From positions 558,001 to 622,000 of the forward strand of contig NZ_JASJEX010000001.1 of assembly GCF_030067705.1 (NCBI RefSeq): a DNA stretch of 64,000 nucleotides, written 5' to 3'. Every line of letters starts with the position of its first letter. Position 1 is the first letter of the stretch. Positions 49,886 to 56,619 of this stretch are shown piece after piece. The translations under genes and the position numbers were made by a program. A model generated the notes under the pieces. That model had not been told where the DNA came from. It was given only the letters and a program-made list of their open reading frames with translations, and made no database searches. Source of the DNA: Kribbibacterium absianum. GTDB lineage: Bacteria; Actinomycetota; Coriobacteriia; Coriobacteriales; Atopobiaceae.

Positions 49886-50371
49886 CTATTCCGCCGCCTC
49901 GACGCAAAGGCGCGCCAGCGTCTCCGCCATGCCCTCCTCGGTGGTCTGGCGCCGGAGCTCCTCCACCTTGGCGTCGTCCATGAAGATGTTCATGAGAGCC
50001 TGGAGCACGGCCACCTGGTCCTCGGCGTGCGCGAGCAGCCCGAGGTTGATCACCAGCTCCGCGTTCACCGGGACGTCGAGCCCGGCCATGTGCGTGAAGG
50101 GCACCGGCTTTGCCGGCCGCACCACCGCGATGTAGGGCCGCCCGATGTGCTCCGGGTCCACGTGCGGGATGGCGACCTGGATGGACTCGCACGCGAGCCC
50201 CGTGGGATACGCGGCCTCGCGCTCCCTCACGGCGTCGTACCAGGTGTCCTTGATGTAGCCCCTCTCGTCCAGCCGTGCGCCCAGCTGGGCGAAGAGGTCG
50301 TCCGCGTCCTCGGCGTCGATGTCGAAGAACACAAGCTCAGGCTTGATGAGGCTCACGTCGACCGTGCCCAT
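49886..50371 (-). CDS. PTS sugar transporter EIIA (galactitol/fructose type)
   Basis: 161 residues of the PTS_EIIA_2 fold. The phosphorylated histidine is H70 in SIQVAIPHVDPEHI; other family strands are FAQLGARLDERGYIKDTWYDAVREREAAYPTGLA and LGLLAHAEDQVAVLQALMNIF. It would receive phosphate from HPr (not in the window) and pass it to the separate IIB at 54155-54442. Last gene of the minus-strand run TIM-YjbQ-aldolase-IIA. Confidence 0.88.
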   Translation of the reverse strand: MGTVDVSLIKPELVFFDIDAEDADDLFAQLGARLDERGYIKDTWYDAVREREAAYPTGLACESIQVAIPHVDPEHIGRPYIAVVRPAKPVPFTHMAGLDVPVNAELVINLGLLAHAEDQVAVLQALMNIFMDDAKVEELRRQTTEEGMAETLARLCVEAAE

Positions 50372-50386: not shown

Positions 50387-51271
50387 TTAGCCGCGCGGCC
50401 TCATGACCGGCTTGGCGTCGTTGGCGAAGGTCGTTATCACGCGCGAGGCCTCGGCCAGCAGGCGGTCGTAGGCGGCGGCGCAGAGGTCGTCCCAGAAGAC
50501 CGGGCGTCCCTCGTCACGGGCGGCGTCTATCACGGCCGTTGCCGCTTCGCCAGCGTACTTCGATCCGTAGGTGTAGTAGTTGATCTTTCGGATGCCCGCG
50601 TCAATGGCCGCATGGTAGTCGGCGTCCGAGACGCCGGAGCCTCCGTGCATCACAAGCGGGAGGCCCGAGAGCTCGCGAATCTCGCGGAGCACGTCGAAGG
50701 AGAGGTGCGGCTCGCCCTTGTACAGGCCGTGGACGGTGCCGAACGAGCACGCGAGCGCGTCGCACTGGGTGTCGGCGATGAAGCGGGCGGCCTCGGCCGG
50801 GTCGGTGTACACGGCGGCCGTCTCGTGCGCCAGCTGGCCCGCGCCTCCCTCGCTCGCGCCCATGGAGCCGATCTCGCACTCCAGCCCGGCGTCGAACTCG
50901 TCGCACATGGCACGGGCGCGCAGGGAGTTGGCCACGTTCTGCTCGTAGGGCAGCGTGGAGCCGTCGTACATCGCGCCGGTGAACCCGAGGTCGAGGGCAC
51001 GGCGCACGAGGCCGAGGTCCTCGCCGTGGTCCAGGTGCACGCAGACCATCGCGCTCGAGGCGTCGGCCAGCTCGAGCATCGCCGGGCCGATCTGCTCGAT
51101 GGGGACGAAGGCCTCATGGGACTGCGCGTGGGCGACGATCACGGGGAACCCGGTGCCCTCGGCGGCGTCGACGGCCGCCCGGAGCATCTCGAAGTTCGGG
51201 CAGTTGAAGGCCGCGACGGCCATGTTCCGCTGGCTTGCGACGGCCAGGATGTCGGTGAGGTTGACGAGCAT
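50387..51271 (-). CDS. Class II aldolase, GatY/KbaY/Fba type
   Basis: 294-residue zinc-dependent ketose-bisphosphate aldolase. VHLDHGED (D81, H82) has the catalytic aspartate and a metal histidine; FGTVHGLYKGEPHLSFDVLREI and LPLVMHGGSGVSDADY supply the other ligands and the phosphate loop; INYYTYGSKYA follows where INxxT is usual. The family includes fructose-1,6- and tagatose-1,6-bisphosphate aldolases. Placement with a Gat-type PTS suggests that it cleaves the phosphorylated product of the imported sugar or polyol. Fifteen bases upstream of IIA. Confidence 0.85.
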   Translation of the reverse strand: MLVNLTDILAVASQRNMAVAAFNCPNFEMLRAAVDAAEGTGFPVIVAHAQSHEAFVPIEQIGPAMLELADASSAMVCVHLDHGEDLGLVRRALDLGFTGAMYDGSTLPYEQNVANSLRARAMCDEFDAGLECEIGSMGASEGGAGQLAHETAAVYTDPAEAARFIADTQCDALACSFGTVHGLYKGEPHLSFDVLREIRELSGLPLVMHGGSGVSDADYHAAIDAGIRKINYYTYGSKYAGEAATAVIDAARDEGRPVFWDDLCAAAYDRLLAEASRVITTFANDAKPVMRPRG

Positions 51272-51298: not shown

Positions 51299-51820
51299 TT
51301 ACTCGCCGATCACGACCACGCGGGCGCGGCGCGTGCGCTCGCGACAGCGGTCGAAGTCCACAAGGTAGATGCTCGCGAGGCCGTTCATGTTGAGCGCGCC
51401 GTTCGAGACCTCGAAGGTCTGGCTAGACCCCACGACGACGGAGCGGAGGTGAGCGTCGCCGTTCCAGAGCTGGGTGCGGTCGCCGCCGGGCAGCCACTTC
51501 TCAAGCTCCGGCCAGGTCTCCACCTCCTCGAAGTGCTGAAGGCCGGGATACCGGTAGGTGCTCCAGTCGTGCTGCTCGGGAAAGATGCGCCCGAGGCCGT
51601 CGGAGAGGTCCGCCTGGAGGAACGTGTCCCCCGCCGGCGTGTGGTCGTGGTCGTACTCCTGTGAGAAGACCGCGCAGGTGGTGTGGCAGGAGATGACCAC
51701 GGCGATGCCCTCGACGATGCCGCTCTCGGCCACGATGCCCCGCACGCCGTCGGTGATGTCGACGTAGGTGGGCTTGCCCGCCACGGTCTCGCAGGTGACC
51801 GTCCCTTTGTGCACCGTCAT
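51299..51820 (-). CDS. YjbQ family protein (UPF0047)
   Basis: 173 residues. Conserved elements: VVISCHTTCAVFSQEYD (His46), DAHLRSVVVGSSQTFEVSNGAL, IYLVDFDRCRERTRRARVVVIGE, and a metal-site-like mix of histidines (HDHTPAGD, QHDW). The family is named for weak thiamine-phosphate synthase activity and its true role is unsettled. It starts 2 bases after the stop of the TIM-like gene, in the middle of a sugar operon, which argues for a role in handling sugar phosphates. Slightly longer than the ~140-residue core family. Confidence 0.85.
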   Translation of the reverse strand: MTVHKGTVTCETVAGKPTYVDITDGVRGIVAESGIVEGIAVVISCHTTCAVFSQEYDHDHTPAGDTFLQADLSDGLGRIFPEQHDWSTYRYPGLQHFEEVETWPELEKWLPGGDRTQLWNGDAHLRSVVVGSSQTFEVSNGALNMNGLASIYLVDFDRCRERTRRARVVVIGE

Positions 51821-51822
51821 GG

Positions 51823-52539
51823 TCAGCCCTCCGCTTCGATCGTTGCGGCGATCTCTGCGCGAGCGCGGTCGAGCGCGGCGAACATGTCGTCGAGCACCGC
51901 GTGCGGGTCCTCGGCGGCGACGATGCCCGACGTGCCCCCCGACGCGTCGGCGCCGCACATGATCGCGTCGTAGACGTTCTGGCCGCTGTGGATGCCCGCC
52001 GCCTGGAGGACGAGGGTCTCGGGCGAGATCGCCTTCACGGCCTCGGTGGAGCCGCGCATGTAGTCCTCCCCCGCCACCTGACCGGTGCCGATGAGGCTGT
52101 TGAGCTCGCACACCATGACGTCGGGGTGCAGCTGCGCGATGGCCCTTCCCTCCTCGACGGAGTCGGCGCAGACCACCGTGACGATGCCCACCTCGCGGGC
52201 GCGCTGGATCGTGAGCGCCAGCTCGTGGACCGTGAGCGGCAGCTCCGCATGGTTGAGGAACGTGGCCTTGACGCCAGCCGCAGCGAGGGCCTCGGGGAGC
52301 ACGTGCCCCATCCCTCGCCCGGGGGTGAGGGACTCCATGTACTGCGCGCAGGGGATCAGGTGCGGGCATTCCGCGATGACCGCCGGCAGGTCGATGAGCT
52401 GGGCCGTGAAGAGCACCTGCACGTCGTACCTTTCGGCGAGCGCGTCGGTGTAACGGGCCAACTCCAGGAGATCCTCGCCGTAGAGGTAGGACTTGGGATT
52501 GACCACAAAGAACGGTCTTTCGAGCTTCACAGGTTCCAT
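51823..52539 (-). CDS. Triosephosphate isomerase-like TIM-barrel protein
   Basis: 238 residues. All catalytic positions of TIM are present: N14 and K16 (VVNPKSY), H97 (FLNHAELP) and E145 (VCELNSLIGTG), with the phosphate-loop IGTGQ and the C-terminal GADASGGTSGIVAA. The sequence is otherwise far from housekeeping TpiA, and genes of this kind occur in sugar/polyol loci where they isomerise other phosphorylated ketoses or aldoses. First gene of the minus-strand catabolic operon; the ATG follows GAGAGGG. Confidence 0.82.
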   Translation of the reverse strand: MEPVKLERPFFVVNPKSYLYGEDLLELARYTDALAERYDVQVLFTAQLIDLPAVIAECPHLIPCAQYMESLTPGRGMGHVLPEALAAAGVKATFLNHAELPLTVHELALTIQRAREVGIVTVVCADSVEEGRAIAQLHPDVMVCELNSLIGTGQVAGEDYMRGSTEAVKAISPETLVLQAAGIHSGQNVYDAIMCGADASGGTSGIVAAEDPHAVLDDMFAALDRARAEIAATIEAEG

Positions 52540-52587
52540 GGGCGCCCTCTCGTCAAGCTGAATGCGGGGACAAGTCGCGGCCATCCT

Positions 52588-52613
52588 ACTTGTTCCGCAG
52601 GGACGGTACAAGT
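52588..52613. promoter_or_regulatory. Putative operator of the GntR/UTRA regulator (divergent gap)
   Basis: Half-sites ACTTGTT (52588-52594) and TACAAGT (52607-52613) are separated by 12 bases. An additional ACAAGT lies at 52570-52575. The same ACTTGTW-N12-TACAAGT arrangement recurs upstream of the IIC gene (54971-54996). The site lies between the divergent TIM-like operon and the GntR gene. Confidence 0.65.
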
Positions 52614-52734
52614 CGCTTTTGGGCGAGCGTCCTTTTCGGGTCCCGTGGTTTTCAACCCGCCACGAAAAGACGGGCACCTCTCAGCGCTAAGCTTGGCGCC
52701 ATCCGCGAGGCCGTCCAGAAAGACCGAGGAGCCT

Positions 52735-53469
52735 GTGGCCAACGACCGTTCGTCCGAGCCCCTGAGCTCCCAGGTGGCCGAGCACATCCGCAGCAAGATC
52801 TACGCGAAGGAGTGGGGCCCGGGCGACCGGCTGCCCTCCGAGCACGCCCTGATGGAGCAGTTCGGCGTCAGCCGCGGCACCGTGCGAAGGGCGCTCCAGT
52901 CGCTGATCCAGGAAGGGCTGCTCACGAGCGAGCACGGCCGGGGCACCTTCGTCCGCGTGCCCCGCGTGCTGCACCCCACCGGCAACCGCCCGCTCTCCTT
53001 TGCCGCGGCGCTCGAGGACCAGGGCATCCGGTTCGAGACCACGGTGCTCGAGCGCGAGGCGGTGACGCCTCCCTCCCACGTCGCGACGCGCCTCGACCTG
53101 GACGGGGCCGACCTCGTGCTCCATTCCCACCGCCTCCGCTGCGACTCCGCCGGCACGCCGCTCATGGCCCTCGACAGCTGGATCCCGCTCAAGCGGTGCC
53201 CGGGCATCGAGCGTCTCGACCTCACCCAGGTGTCCCTGTTCGACGCCGTCCAGCAGACGTCGGGCCTGCTCATCGCTTGGTCCGAGATGTCCTACACGGC
53301 GGTCCTCGCGGGGTCAGACATCGGGGCGGTGCTCGGGGTCCCGGAGACGGCGCCGGCCCTTCGGCTCGACCAGCTCATCTATCTGGAGAGCGGCGACCCC
53401 GTGGAGTGGAGCTCCGTGTTTCTGCCCGGCGGTCACGCGATCACGGGCGTGGGCGTCCAGACGCGCTAG
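52735..53469 (+). CDS. GntR-family (HutC/UTRA) regulator of the PTS locus
   Basis: 244 residues with a GTG start after GAGGA. Winged helix (about 10-80): SKIYAKEWGPGDRLPSEHALMEQFGVSRGTVRRALQSLIQEGLLTSEHGRGTFV. UTRA ligand-binding domain (about 95-240): ALRLDQLIYLESGDPVEWSSVFLPG. Divergent from the catabolic operon, with a matching inverted half-site in both the shared gap and the IIC upstream region, so it is the likely local regulator. Its stop overlaps that of the convergent PH-like gene by two bases. Confidence 0.88.
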   Translation: MANDRSSEPLSSQVAEHIRSKIYAKEWGPGDRLPSEHALMEQFGVSRGTVRRALQSLIQEGLLTSEHGRGTFVRVPRVLHPTGNRPLSFAAALEDQGIRFETTVLEREAVTPPSHVATRLDLDGADLVLHSHRLRCDSAGTPLMALDSWIPLKRCPGIERLDLTQVSLFDAVQQTSGLLIAWSEMSYTAVLAGSDIGAVLGVPETAPALRLDQLIYLESGDPVEWSSVFLPGGHAITGVGVQTR

Positions 53470-54065
53470 TTGGGCTCCCCGGCGTTCGTGGCACCTGGGC
53501 GCGCCGCACGTCTGGCCCGCTTCTGCGCCTTCTCCGCCTCTTTGTCAGCCTTGATCCGCGCCTTGATCTGATCCTCGTGCTCGGCGTACACTCGGTTAGA
53601 GCGGCGCGCCCGTGCCTTGAGCGAGTCCGGGTGCACGCGCTCCTCCAGAGCCTCGAGGGCCTCGGCCAGCTCGAGGCCGCCGGCCATGTGGCCGGCCTGG
53701 ACCCAGTAGCGCCCCTTGACCGGGCCGCCCCCGTTCACGCGCACGTAGAGCTTCTCCTTGCCGCCCACCTCACGGACGCTCAGCTCCCGGATCCCCGAGA
53801 GCGGGAACCGGTCCGTGCGGCCGAAGCCCTGGAAGACCAGCTCGTCGTCGGTCAGTGTGACCTTCTCCGGGTTCGCGATCGCCACGAACGTGTTCCAGAC
53901 CTGGTAGCCGCACACGAGCAGGACCGCCCAGAGGATGCCGACAGGGAACGCGGAGCCGCCGATGAGCCCCCAGGCCGCCCAGAGCGCGAGCGCAGCGCAG
54001 AAGACTCCCACCGCGATGACGTCGACGACGTAGTAGCGGCGCTCGAAGGTGTAGGTCCCGCGCAT
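53466..54065 (-). CDS. Hypothetical membrane protein with PH-like domain
   Basis: 199 residues: two N-terminal transmembrane segments (about 14-34 and 38-60), then a bacterial PH-like stretch (about 65-120: VTLTDDELVFQGFGRTDRFPLSGIRELSVREVGGKEKLYVRVNGGG) and a charged helical tail rich in Lys/Arg/Glu (about 145-199). No enzymatic motif. It lies downstream of the IIB gene on the same strand (89-base gap), within the sugar locus; the link to transport is unclear. Confidence 0.72.
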   Translation of the reverse strand: MRGTYTFERRYYVVDVIAVGVFCAALALWAAWGLIGGSAFPVGILWAVLLVCGYQVWNTFVAIANPEKVTLTDDELVFQGFGRTDRFPLSGIRELSVREVGGKEKLYVRVNGGGPVKGRYWVQAGHMAGGLELAEALEALEERVHPDSLKARARRSNRVYAEHEDQIKARIKADKEAEKAQKRARRAARPGATNAGEPN

Positions 54066-54154
54066 CGCGCTCCCCTCTCATCGGGCTCGGTCACACGAAC
54101 GGGGCCCTCAGCGGAGCCCCGTGCGCCCTCGTCCAGCCTCAGCTTCGTCGCTCG

Positions 54155-54442
54155 TTAACGGTTCGCCATGAAGTCAAGGATCTGCTGCTCGACGGCCTGG
54201 CGCCCGATGCCGGTGAGGAACGGGATCCCGTTGATGAACTCGCACTCGATGCCGTCCGGCTTCACCGTCGTGGCGATCACCAGGTCGGCGCTCGCGGAGG
54301 ACGGCACGGCGTCGGCGATCGAGGTGGTCTTGATCGTGTAGTCGCCGGCGTGCCCGTTGGTGTCCAGGAGGTCCTTGATCTTGTTGCAGACCGCGGTGGA
54401 GGTGGCGATGCCGGAGCCGCAGGCGACGAGGATGGAGGTCAT
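54155..54442 (-). CDS. PTS sugar transporter EIIB (galactitol type)
   Basis: 95 residues. The phosphorylated cysteine C8 lies in SILVACGSGIATSTAVCNKIKDLL, the GatB/SgcB P-loop-like signature. ASADLVIATTVK and GIPFLTGIGRQAVEQQIL complete the fold. It takes phosphate from IIA (49886-50371) and gives it to the sugar at IIC (55183-56619). It is unusual that IIB and IIC are on opposite strands. GAAAGGGAC precedes the ATG. Confidence 0.9.
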   Translation of the reverse strand: MTSILVACGSGIATSTAVCNKIKDLLDTNGHAGDYTIKTTSIADAVPSSASADLVIATTVKPDGIECEFINGIPFLTGIGRQAVEQQILDFMANR

Positions 54443-54695
54443 GGCTGTCCCTTTCGCTGATGGGTGGTGGCGGGCTCTCGGGGCCCGCAGATTCTCGTAG
54501 GCATTCTGGGGCCCGGGGCACGGCGGCGCGCCCAGAATCCCGCGAACGGCTCCATCATCATGCCATGGAGGCCGCTCGGCGTCCCCCGATGTGGCGCGCC
54601 CCGCTTTTTTGCGATTCGTCGCGATTCATCTGCCAAAGGGAGGGACAGAGAGGATAGAAACACGGCAACGCCCGTCCGCCCACAAGGAGGCAACC
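54443..54695. promoter_or_regulatory. Divergent upstream region of IIB and the 61-residue protein gene
   Basis: 253 bases without a gene. It contains an 8-bp inverted repeat ATTCTGGG (54503-54510) / CCCAGAAT (54531-54538) and a TTTTTT tract near 54604. The ACTTGTA operator seen elsewhere in the locus is absent, so IIB may be controlled differently from the other PTS genes. Confidence 0.4.
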
Positions 54696-54881
54696 ATGGC
54701 CGACACCGAGAAGACCGCGCCCGAGAACACGCGCCCGAACGCCGCACAGATGCAGCAAATCGAGCGCGCCATCATCGACTCCGAGGAGGGGATCTACACC
54801 CTCGACGGCGGCTACGCGCAGGAACAGGAGCTCGAGGGCGCCGTCGACCGGATCCTCGACACCAAGGACCCCGAGGCCTGA
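54696..54881 (+). CDS. Small acidic hypothetical protein (61 residues)
   Basis: A short frame with an excellent ribosome site (AAGGAGG, 6 bases from the ATG) and its own intrinsic terminator shortly after the stop. The protein is acidic and predicted mostly helical (TRPNAAQMQQIERAIIDSEEGIYTLDGGYAQEQELEGAVDRILDTKD), with no membrane segment and no motif that I recognise. It lies between the IIB and IIC genes. It could be a regulator or partner of the PTS, or unrelated. Confidence 0.7.
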   Translation: MADTEKTAPENTRPNAAQMQQIERAIIDSEEGIYTLDGGYAQEQELEGAVDRILDTKDPEA

Positions 54882-54925
54882 CCCGGGTCTTCCGTCGATG
54901 AATCCGCACCGGCGCTGAGCCGCAG

Positions 54926-54952
54926 CGGGGCGTCTTCCAGCGCCCCGTTTTT
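54926..54952 (+). terminator. Intrinsic terminator after the small acidic protein gene
   Basis: CGGGGCG pairs with CGCCCCG around an 8-base loop, followed by TTTTTG. It isolates the small gene from the downstream IIC gene. Confidence 0.8.
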
Positions 54953-54970
54953 GCGTCCGAGCGCCCATCG

Positions 54971-54996
54971 ACTTGTACTCTGATTCCGATACAAGT
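54971..54996. promoter_or_regulatory. Putative GntR operator upstream of IIC
   Basis: ACTTGTA (54971-54977) and its exact complement TACAAGT (54990-54996) are separated by 12 bases. The arrangement equals the one in the TIM-GntR gap (52588-52613). It lies about 190 bases upstream of the IIC start. Confidence 0.65.
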
Positions 54997-55182: not shown

Positions 55183-56619
55183 ATGGATGCACTCGTCGCC
55201 ATATTCGGAGGTATCTCGAGCCTCGGCGTCTCGGTGGTCATGCCCATCGTGCTGACCATCCTCGGCTGCTGCTTCGGCGCAGGCTTTGGCAAGAGCCTCA
55301 AGGCCGGCCTCACCGTGGGCATCGGCTTCATCGGCCTGAACCTTGTCATCAACCAGCTCATGGGCACGGACCTGGCGGGCGGTGTCGAGGCCATGGTCAA
55401 CCGCTTCAGCCTCTCCCTCTCCGTGATGGATGTGGGCTGGCCGGCCGCCTCCGCGATCGCCATGGGCTCCATCGTCGGCACCATCATCATTCCGCTGGCC
55501 TTGGCCGTGAACCTCGTCATGCTGCTGACCAACACCACCCAGACCGCCGACGTCGACATCTGGAACTACTGGCACTTCGCGTTCACCGGCGCCCTCGTCG
55601 CCATCGTGTGCGACAGCGTTTGGCTCGGCATCGCCGCCGCCGTGATCAACGAGGTCATCGTCCTCGTGATCGGCGACCTCACGGCCCCGCAGGTGGAGAA
55701 GTCGCTCGGACTTCCCGGCGTCTCCATCCCCCACGGCTTCTCCGGCGCCTACGCGCCGATCGCGTACGCGGTGAACTGGCTCATCGACAAGGTCCCCGGT
55801 CTGCGCGACGTCAACATCAACGTCCGTTCGATGCAGAAGCGCTTCGGCGTCTTCGGTGAGCCGGTGCTGCTCGGCGCGATCATCGGCCTGCTCATCGGCC
55901 TGCTCGCCGGCTACGGCTTCCTGCCCGAGACCCTCGAGGACGGCACCACCGTCCCGTCCTTCCTCGCGCTCGCCGTCTCGATGGCCGCCGTCATGGTGCT
56001 CATCCCGAAGATGGCTGCCCTCTTGATGGAGGGGTTGCTCCCCATCTCCGACGCCGCCTCCGAGATCATCCAGAAGCGTTTCTCCCACCGCGGCAAGATG
56101 TACATCGGCCTCGACTCCGCCGTGGGCACCGGCCACCCCGTCACGCTGACGCTGTCGCTCATCCTCGTGCCGGTCGCCGTGTTCCTCGCGTTCGTGCTCC
56201 CGGGGAACCAGGTCATCCCGCTGGCGGACCTCGCCTGCATCCCCTACATGTTTGTGCTCATCACCCCGATCGTCGAGGAGAACGGCTTCCGCGGCCTGCT
56301 CGTGGGCATCGTCGTCCTCGCGGTGGGCTTCTACATCGCGACCGACCTCTCGCCGCTCATCACGAGCGCCGCCGCCAACGTGAACTTCGACATGGGCGGC
56401 GCGGCCGCGATCTCCTCGATCTGCGACGGCGCCAACCCGCTCACCTGGGTGATCACCCGCGTCGGGGCCCTCGGCGCCGGCATCGGCCTGGTCGTCCTGG
56501 CCGTCGCCGCCATCGTGCTCGCCCTCTGGAACCGCAAGCGCATCGTGGCCGAGGCCAAGGCCATGCACGCCGTGACCGACGGTGACGCCGCAAGCGGCAC
56601 CGGCGTCACCGCCAAGTAG
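55183..56619 (+). CDS. PTS sugar transporter EIIC (galactitol type)
   Basis: 478-residue permease of the EIIC-Gat family with about 11 hydrophobic segments: starts FGGISSLGVSVVMPIVLTILGCCFGAGFGKSLKAGLTVGIGFIGLNLVINQL. The loop with SVMDVGWPAASAIAMG and the motif GDLTAPQVEKSLGLPGVSIPHGFSG are typical. It carries the sugar or polyol across the membrane while IIB phosphorylates it. AAAGGAG lies 8 bases before the ATG. Own promoter and operator upstream. Confidence 0.9.
   Translation: MDALVAIFGGISSLGVSVVMPIVLTILGCCFGAGFGKSLKAGLTVGIGFIGLNLVINQLMGTDLAGGVEAMVNRFSLSLSVMDVGWPAASAIAMGSIVGTIIIPLALAVNLVMLLTNTTQTADVDIWNYWHFAFTGALVAIVCDSVWLGIAAAVINEVIVLVIGDLTAPQVEKSLGLPGVSIPHGFSGAYAPIAYAVNWLIDKVPGLRDVNINVRSMQKRFGVFGEPVLLGAIIGLLIGLLAGYGFLPETLEDGTTVPSFLALAVSMAAVMVLIPKMAALLMEGLLPISDAASEIIQKRFSHRGKMYIGLDSAVGTGHPVTLTLSLILVPVAVFLAFVLPGNQVIPLADLACIPYMFVLITPIVEENGFRGLLVGIVVLAVGFYIATDLSPLITSAAANVNFDMGGAAAISSICDGANPLTWVITRVGALGAGIGLVVLAVAAIVLALWNRKRIVAEAKAMHAVTDGDAASGTGVTAK

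Follow-up and report, generated by a model that had tools for sequence, protein, structure and literature searches.

Which regulator reads the two long inverted repeats of a phosphotransferase system (PTS) locus in Kribbibacterium absianum, and how could it span half-sites placed so far apart? The locus lies in a 64,000-nucleotide stretch, the window (positions 558,001 to 622,000 of contig NZ_JASJEX010000001.1; G000:C1:558001-622000 in our genome set), in which a preliminary description had noted one 26-bp half-site arrangement at two promoters. The evidence below, drawn from sequence, makes it probable that the HutC-type GntR regulator encoded between these 26-bp dyads uses them as operators, wide and helically phased, through which it would repress the units on both strands until released by a sugar or triose phosphate. 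The features on which the argument turns are as follows (TIM, triose-phosphate isomerase; IIA, IIB and IIC, the PTS components).

52588-52613, TIM (minus)/gntR (plus) intergenic region: site 1, ACTTGT-N14-ACAAGT, exact match, sequence ACTTGTTCCGCAGGGACGGTACAAGT
54971-54996, upstream of the IIC gene: site 2, ACTTGT-N14-ACAAGT, exact match, sequence ACTTGTACTCTGATTCCGATACAAGT
52570-52575, minus strand: an extra single half-site, ACAAGT, exact, the third exact half-site, adjoining site 1
52735-53469, plus strand: gntR, a regulator with a GntR winged helix and a UTRA domain (HutC type), the proposed binder of both sites

Two wide dyads in one genome

Both dyads are exact at the coordinates originally given for them. 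Site 1 starts 147 bp upstream of the gntR start, its far end lies 74 bp upstream of the TIM start, and site 2 starts 212 bp upstream of the IIC start. In each site, 20 bp separate the starts of the two half-sites (~1.9 turns for a pitch of 10.5 bp), in agreement with the two helical turns first estimated. The longer motif of the preliminary description, ACTTGTW-N12-TACAAGT, holds in its core arms at both sites and matches site 2 exactly on both strands; at site 1 it is exact on the plus strand but has one mismatch on the minus strand (AACAAGT instead of TACAAGT), and its W position is weakly conserved in relatives.

Shuffling the window yielded 0.01 matches at ≤2 mismatches versus the four strand-matches (two sites) observed. 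The exact ACTTGT-N14-ACAAGT layout occurs twice in the 2,184,331-base genome, at sites 1 and 2, and when the spacer was allowed to vary from 0 to 30 these same two places, both with a spacer of 14, were again the only ones found. The genome-wide motif scan that had been proposed for this arrangement revealed two places and no crowd of unrelated copies. Allowing one mismatch at spacer 14 added a single place (G000:C1:276980), around which comparison with the locus proteins gave one match, a weak GntR several hundred bases off (L003).

Conservation of the spacing upstream of TIM

Since GntR homologs are present in 139 of 140 family genomes, orthologs were defined by their linkage to TIM; of 396 genomes sampled across the class, 39 encode the PRK04302-type TIM, and these belong to two families of one order. 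We searched the 350 bp upstream of TIM in 28 gntR-TIM-PTS loci, the window included, for ACTTGT and ACAAGT as an inverted pair, tolerating one mismatch over both arms. The pair occurred at an offset of 20 in 27 of the 28 loci (runner-up offset, 3 of 28), and the sole miss, L137, has it with two mismatches. Given that the 60-base flanks of the sites are unrelated (median pairwise identity, 0.27; 23 clusters among 28), the site is maintained by selection rather than by recent descent. Seven of 15 further TIM loci were also positive; three of these duplicate earlier loci (L180, L181 and L184, equal to L004, L006 and L007), and the new ones are L182, L183, L194 and L197.

Pooling 39 sites with at most one mismatch from TIM, FBA (class II aldolase), IIB and IIC promoters gave the consensus ACTTGT-w-Y-A-N8-T-R-w-ACAAGT. 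The base adjoining the ACTTGT core is weakly conserved; conservation is higher for the A at position 9 and the T at position 18, and spacer positions 10 to 17 carry 0.10 to 0.60 bits.

These data bear on whether the pairs could be chance repeats or stems of RNA elements rather than operators. RNA stems can indeed be inverted repeats, but the strict spacing surrounds an unconserved 14-base interior, the sites sit at divergent promoters, and no positive region arose when the 28 TIM promoters were shuffled 100 times; we regard this explanation as very improbable. Chance was ruled out by the genome scan together with the conserved spacing. As for a stem or terminator, the terminator-like matches near site 1 do not coincide with the dyad.

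Distribution of the site among transcription units

In relatives, the usual gene order, all in one direction, is gntR-TIM-YjbQ-IIB-IIC-(53466-type protein)-FBA-IIA; the window locus has a rearranged order split across both strands. Where an FBA/IIA unit is divergent and has its own promoter, the offset-20 site is present (7 of 7 loci), and where FBA/IIA is co-directional and internal it is absent (0 of 15 loci, window included; P = 5.9e-6, Fisher, versus divergent). In one relative (L156), a site stands 126 bp upstream of IIB.

A similar association emerged across the 140 family genomes, which contain 25 exact spacer-14 sites, 15 of them in this gene set. Three adjoin other GntR genes (L133, L134 and L168), one with no gntR in view is near-identical to the L133 and L134 sites (L135), and one lies ~100 bp behind a further gntR (L167). 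The remaining five (G031, G053, G061, G070 and G083) have no such link to a gntR or to the gene set. Since a reversed control pattern gave seven sites in seven genomes, plus 25 in G074 and five in G078, these five are at background level. The earlier proposal that the arrangement joins the two opposite-strand units into one regulon thus gains support from the genome-wide rarity of the site, its spacing at 27 of 28 TIM promoters, its presence at all seven divergent FBA/IIA units and before IIB in L156, and its covariation with the regulator, described next.

Covariation between the half-site and the GntR wing

The gntR product has an N-terminal GntR winged helix (PF00392, 1.6e-23, residues 10 to 73) and a C-terminal UTRA (chorismate-lyase-like) domain (PF07702, 1.3e-24, residues 96 to 231), the two domains that characterize the HutC subfamily. 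Its closest full-length solved relatives are YvoA/NagR and DasR (~1e-19), and its wing reads HGRGT from residue 67.

Among orthologs, the wing is RGS in L146, L186, L189 and L195 and HGR, HGK, HGS, QGS or RGK elsewhere. G occupies half-site position 2 in 6 of the 8 half-sites that accompany an RGS wing versus 3 of 58 others (33 loci; P = 2.4e-5, Fisher), and gntR promoters, which lay outside this first count, show the same tendency (9 G and 4 C with RGS versus 20 G and 50 C otherwise; P = 0.009), although three of the four RGS proteins come from one genus, so that the Fisher values overstate independence. The fourth, L146 (genome G036), belongs to a different family. In L186 the replacement is symmetric, AGTTGT-N14-ACAACT, at the same spacing. 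In our register, position 2 corresponds to position -7 of the NagR operator, a base near or contacted by wing residue Gly69 (PMC4333415). The covariation therefore points to the local GntR as the binder of these sites.

An alternative reader would be a regulator of more global scope whose targets happen to include the locus, and compact sites in relatives lend it some weight. ACTTGT-N4-ACAAGT was found 18 times in 14 of the 140 family genomes, two of which (G035 and G117) have both the wide and the compact kind. Of nine compact-site stretches whose translations were read, without a family search, G038, G040 and G048:C134 have glucanotransferase- or phosphorylase-like proteins. A similar half-site is thus probably read by another regulator, and a different regulator may recognize these arms where they stand at the compact spacing. 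In the present genome, however, the only two ACTTGT...ACAAGT pairs are at this locus, the site is linked to this gntR and covaries with its wing, and it follows the gene set where the set is split, all of which makes control by a global regulator unlikely.

Compact sites near maltodextrin-type genes in relatives are located at L225 5865, L226 5790, and L230 5219 and 10466. Around GntR genes without TIM, the inverted-repeat lists showed no common motif, and 15 loci of a sister GntR clade without TIM had no common inverted pair above 4 of 15, a result that carries little information because many of these gntR genes lie close behind another coding sequence. Upstream of a sister GntR gene in two genomes (L106 and L109) there is a different conserved stretch, around GGTCAACTGGTCAAGTTG.

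Helically phased half-sites at other promoters

Direct repeats of the half-site, 11 bp apart, precede gntR in 10 of the 31 loci compared (runner-up, 3; NSTTGT form, with the window excluded, its gntR sharing site 1). A second GntR-PTS system, found at 11 loci of one genus (L206 to L216) and assigned its PTS neighbors by reading translations without a family search, has inverted pairs at offsets of 31 (9 of 11), 20 (5 of 11) and 42 (4 of 11) when one mismatch is allowed, counts that relatedness within the genus may inflate. Direct repeats at 11 occur in five of these 11 loci. The offsets 31, 20, 42 and 11 correspond to ~3, 2, 4 and 1 turns.

A speculative generalization would be that a Coriobacteriia branch of HutC regulators reads phased single half-sites, inverted at 20 bp for catabolic units, direct at 11 bp for its own promoter, and at 20, 31 or 42 in the second system. 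If so, its targets would be told apart from the compact ACTTGT-N4-ACAAGT sites of other family loci by spacing rather than by half-site sequence. These regulators would also hold DNA with their binding domains far apart, a pose until now associated with ligand-bound, DNA-free NagR.

A model for repression and its alternatives

We infer that the GntR binds both sites, represses and responds to an inducer, with either one splayed dimer or two cooperating dimers at each site. One winged-helix domain would contact each half-site, ACTTGT-w-Y-A. The half-sites face the same side of the helix and are separated by ~two turns, which exceeds the usual HutC operator by a turn (ten base pairs). Through the shared site 1, the GntR most likely represses the TIM-YjbQ-aldolase-IIA unit and its own gene, and through site 2 it most likely represses the IIC gene. 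Repression would occur by blocking the promoters, and release would be brought about by a phosphorylated sugar or triose from the galactitol-family PTS pathway.

The binding domains of DNA-bound NagR are ~26 Å apart, and those of free NagR range from 22 to 55 Å in simulation (PMC4918961), so that a two-turn spacing needs either more widely separated domains or two dimers. With two dimers per site, each ACTTGTwYA would form the strong half of a 16-bp canonical HutC site (GT-N4-AC) with its weak arm in the spacer, and the dimers would bind cooperatively. Canonical sites extended inward from the outer arms would come together at positions 11 to 16, the 11-bp direct repeats at 10 of 31 gntR promoters and the second-system arrays at 20, 31 and 42 resemble oligomer binding, and Suvorova et al. 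describe extra half-sites 7 to 12 nt from the center of GntR-family sites (PMC4494728). On the other hand, spacer positions 10 to 17 have low information and no second ACAAGT or ACTTGT arm, and the six inner bases would be contested by both dimers. We rate this arrangement somewhat below an even chance; it is a variant of the repressor model in stoichiometry, and the likelihoods of the two are not mutually exclusive.

Alternatively, the GntR might activate from the wide site in an effector-bound form with separated DNA-binding domains. Ligand does shift the DNA-binding domains of NagR and DasR out of the compact DNA-bound pose (PMC4333415 and PMC4918961), and separated domains would fit the two-turn spacing. 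However, the upward-oriented DasR domains sample just 30 to 40 Å in simulation, short of two turns (PMC4918961), and, judged by eye, the site of AT-richer relatives overlaps promoter-like elements, where a repressor usually sits. Activation is consequently improbable in our estimation.

Several observations weigh against repression by the GntR through these sites. Neither window site has a recognizable promoter beside it in a scan for sigma-70 elements, which leaves promoter occlusion as a proposal. In the window, the stand-alone IIC gene has site 2 and the separate IIB gene has no site: as the preliminary description had stated, IIB lacks the arrangement. Its promoter contains no half-site pair within two mismatches, and a search of the interval from IIB to site 2 at one mismatch gave a single half-site, ACAAGG at 54682. 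Eight of the 15 further TIM loci lack an ACTTGT pair within one mismatch. In four of them (L200, L202, L204 and L205), TIM is apparently not the first gene, to judge from the upstream sequence, L196 has a pair with two mismatches, and L186, L189 and L195 have changed half-sites. Two of the latter, L189 (AGCTGT/ACAACT) and L195 (AGTTGT/ATAACT), have no fully symmetric AGTTGT pair, and the concentration of RGS proteins in one genus qualifies the covariation as well. Finally, 21 of 31 gntR promoters lack the 11-bp direct repeat.

Genes of the locus

The remaining genes are as follows.

49886-50371, minus strand: PTS EIIA, fructose/galactitol type (PF00359, 1.3e-25)
50387-51271, minus strand: FBA, class II fructose-bisphosphate-type aldolase, GatY-like (PF01116, 3.9e-73)
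51299-51820, minus strand: YjbQ/UPF0047 protein (PF01894, 7.2e-23)
51823-52539, minus strand: TIM-family protein, PRK04302-type triose-phosphate isomerase, first gene of the site 1 unit (NF003302, 161.5 bits, above the cut-off of 132)
53466-54065, minus strand: protein with no Pfam or NCBIfam match
54155-54442, minus strand: PTS EIIB, galactitol type (PF02302, 1.5e-8; NF007643, 1.4e-8, below cut-off)
55183-56619, plus strand: PTS EIIC, galactitol family, behind site 2 (PF03611, 1.5e-83)

The protein without a family match has tblastn matches in 25 of 27 related loci and is a regular member of the PTS gene set. EIIA, EIIB and EIIC of the Gat type are all present by Pfam (PF00359, PF02302 and PF03611), with NCBIfam scores below the curated cut-offs. 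The gntR product likewise falls below cut-off for the NCBIfam equivalogs of the HutC, PhnF, PhnR and TreR types (best, TIGR02018, 112.8 bits versus 220), and regulator and substrate are therefore left without a specific name. An open-access literature search for the substrate returned nothing on this gene set; one paper, PMC10101011, deals with D-tagatose in E. coli and was set aside.

The YjbQ/UPF0047 protein has 146 residues for 113 profile positions, an apparent insertion relative to its family. Between IIB and site 2, positions 54696 to 54881 (plus strand) hold a 61-residue open reading frame whose ribosome-binding site is good and which is followed, judged by eye, by a GC-rich hairpin and T run; it has no homolog among the 139 other family genomes.

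Comparison with known operators and loci

With its galactitol-family EIIA, EIIB and EIIC and its GatY-like class II aldolase, the locus resembles galactitol PTS loci (GatABC and GatY). It differs from the usual Gat set in that TIM, YjbQ and a HutC regulator belong to the conserved set.

Most HutC operators have the form GT-N4-AC, with the consensus NyGTMTAKACNy, which includes the NagR and DasR dre sites (PMC4494728). The layout here, GT-N14-AC, was rightly called unusual for a GntR/HutC regulator: GT and AC are 14 nt apart rather than 4, ten base pairs more, the spacer is unconserved, and many gntR promoters have direct repeats. Both window sites and the ortholog consensus read GT-N14-AC, and ACTTGT-N4-ACAAGT was not found in a scan of this genome. 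What the sites share with HutC-subfamily operators is their inverted GT...AC half-sites, an inner edge, GT-w-Y-A, that resembles the canonical GT-M-TA (PMC4494728), and a regulator adjoining a sugar-uptake operon. An open-access search for a HutC operator with this spacing found none beyond the exceptions in PMC4494728, and an earlier description may exist.

Among those exceptions, the operator of the HutC regulator SdhR, TCTTATGTCTTATATAAGACATAAGA, is also a 26-bp dyad longer than the canonical HutC site, but it is symmetric through its center, whereas the center here is unconserved. The direct-repeat operators of the GntR-family regulators FarR, NagQ and NanR (PMC4494728) likewise consist of repeated, non-compact half-sites, comparable to the 11-bp repeats at gntR promoters; the catabolic promoters here, in contrast, have a wide inverted repeat.

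HutC regulators form a large group of sugar regulators, and operator prediction that relies on the compact GT-N4-AC would miss this regulon, for which ACTTGT-N14-ACAAGT offers a clean search pattern in Coriobacteriia. The extra helical turn, the direct-repeat form at the regulator gene and the wing covariation together provide a testable case for HutC dimers reaching separated half-sites. Judged from sequence comparison, the regulator belongs to the HutC subfamily and has an ordinary domain make-up; its predicted operator departs in layout from the published HutC norm, and this layout is kept across two Coriobacteriia families.

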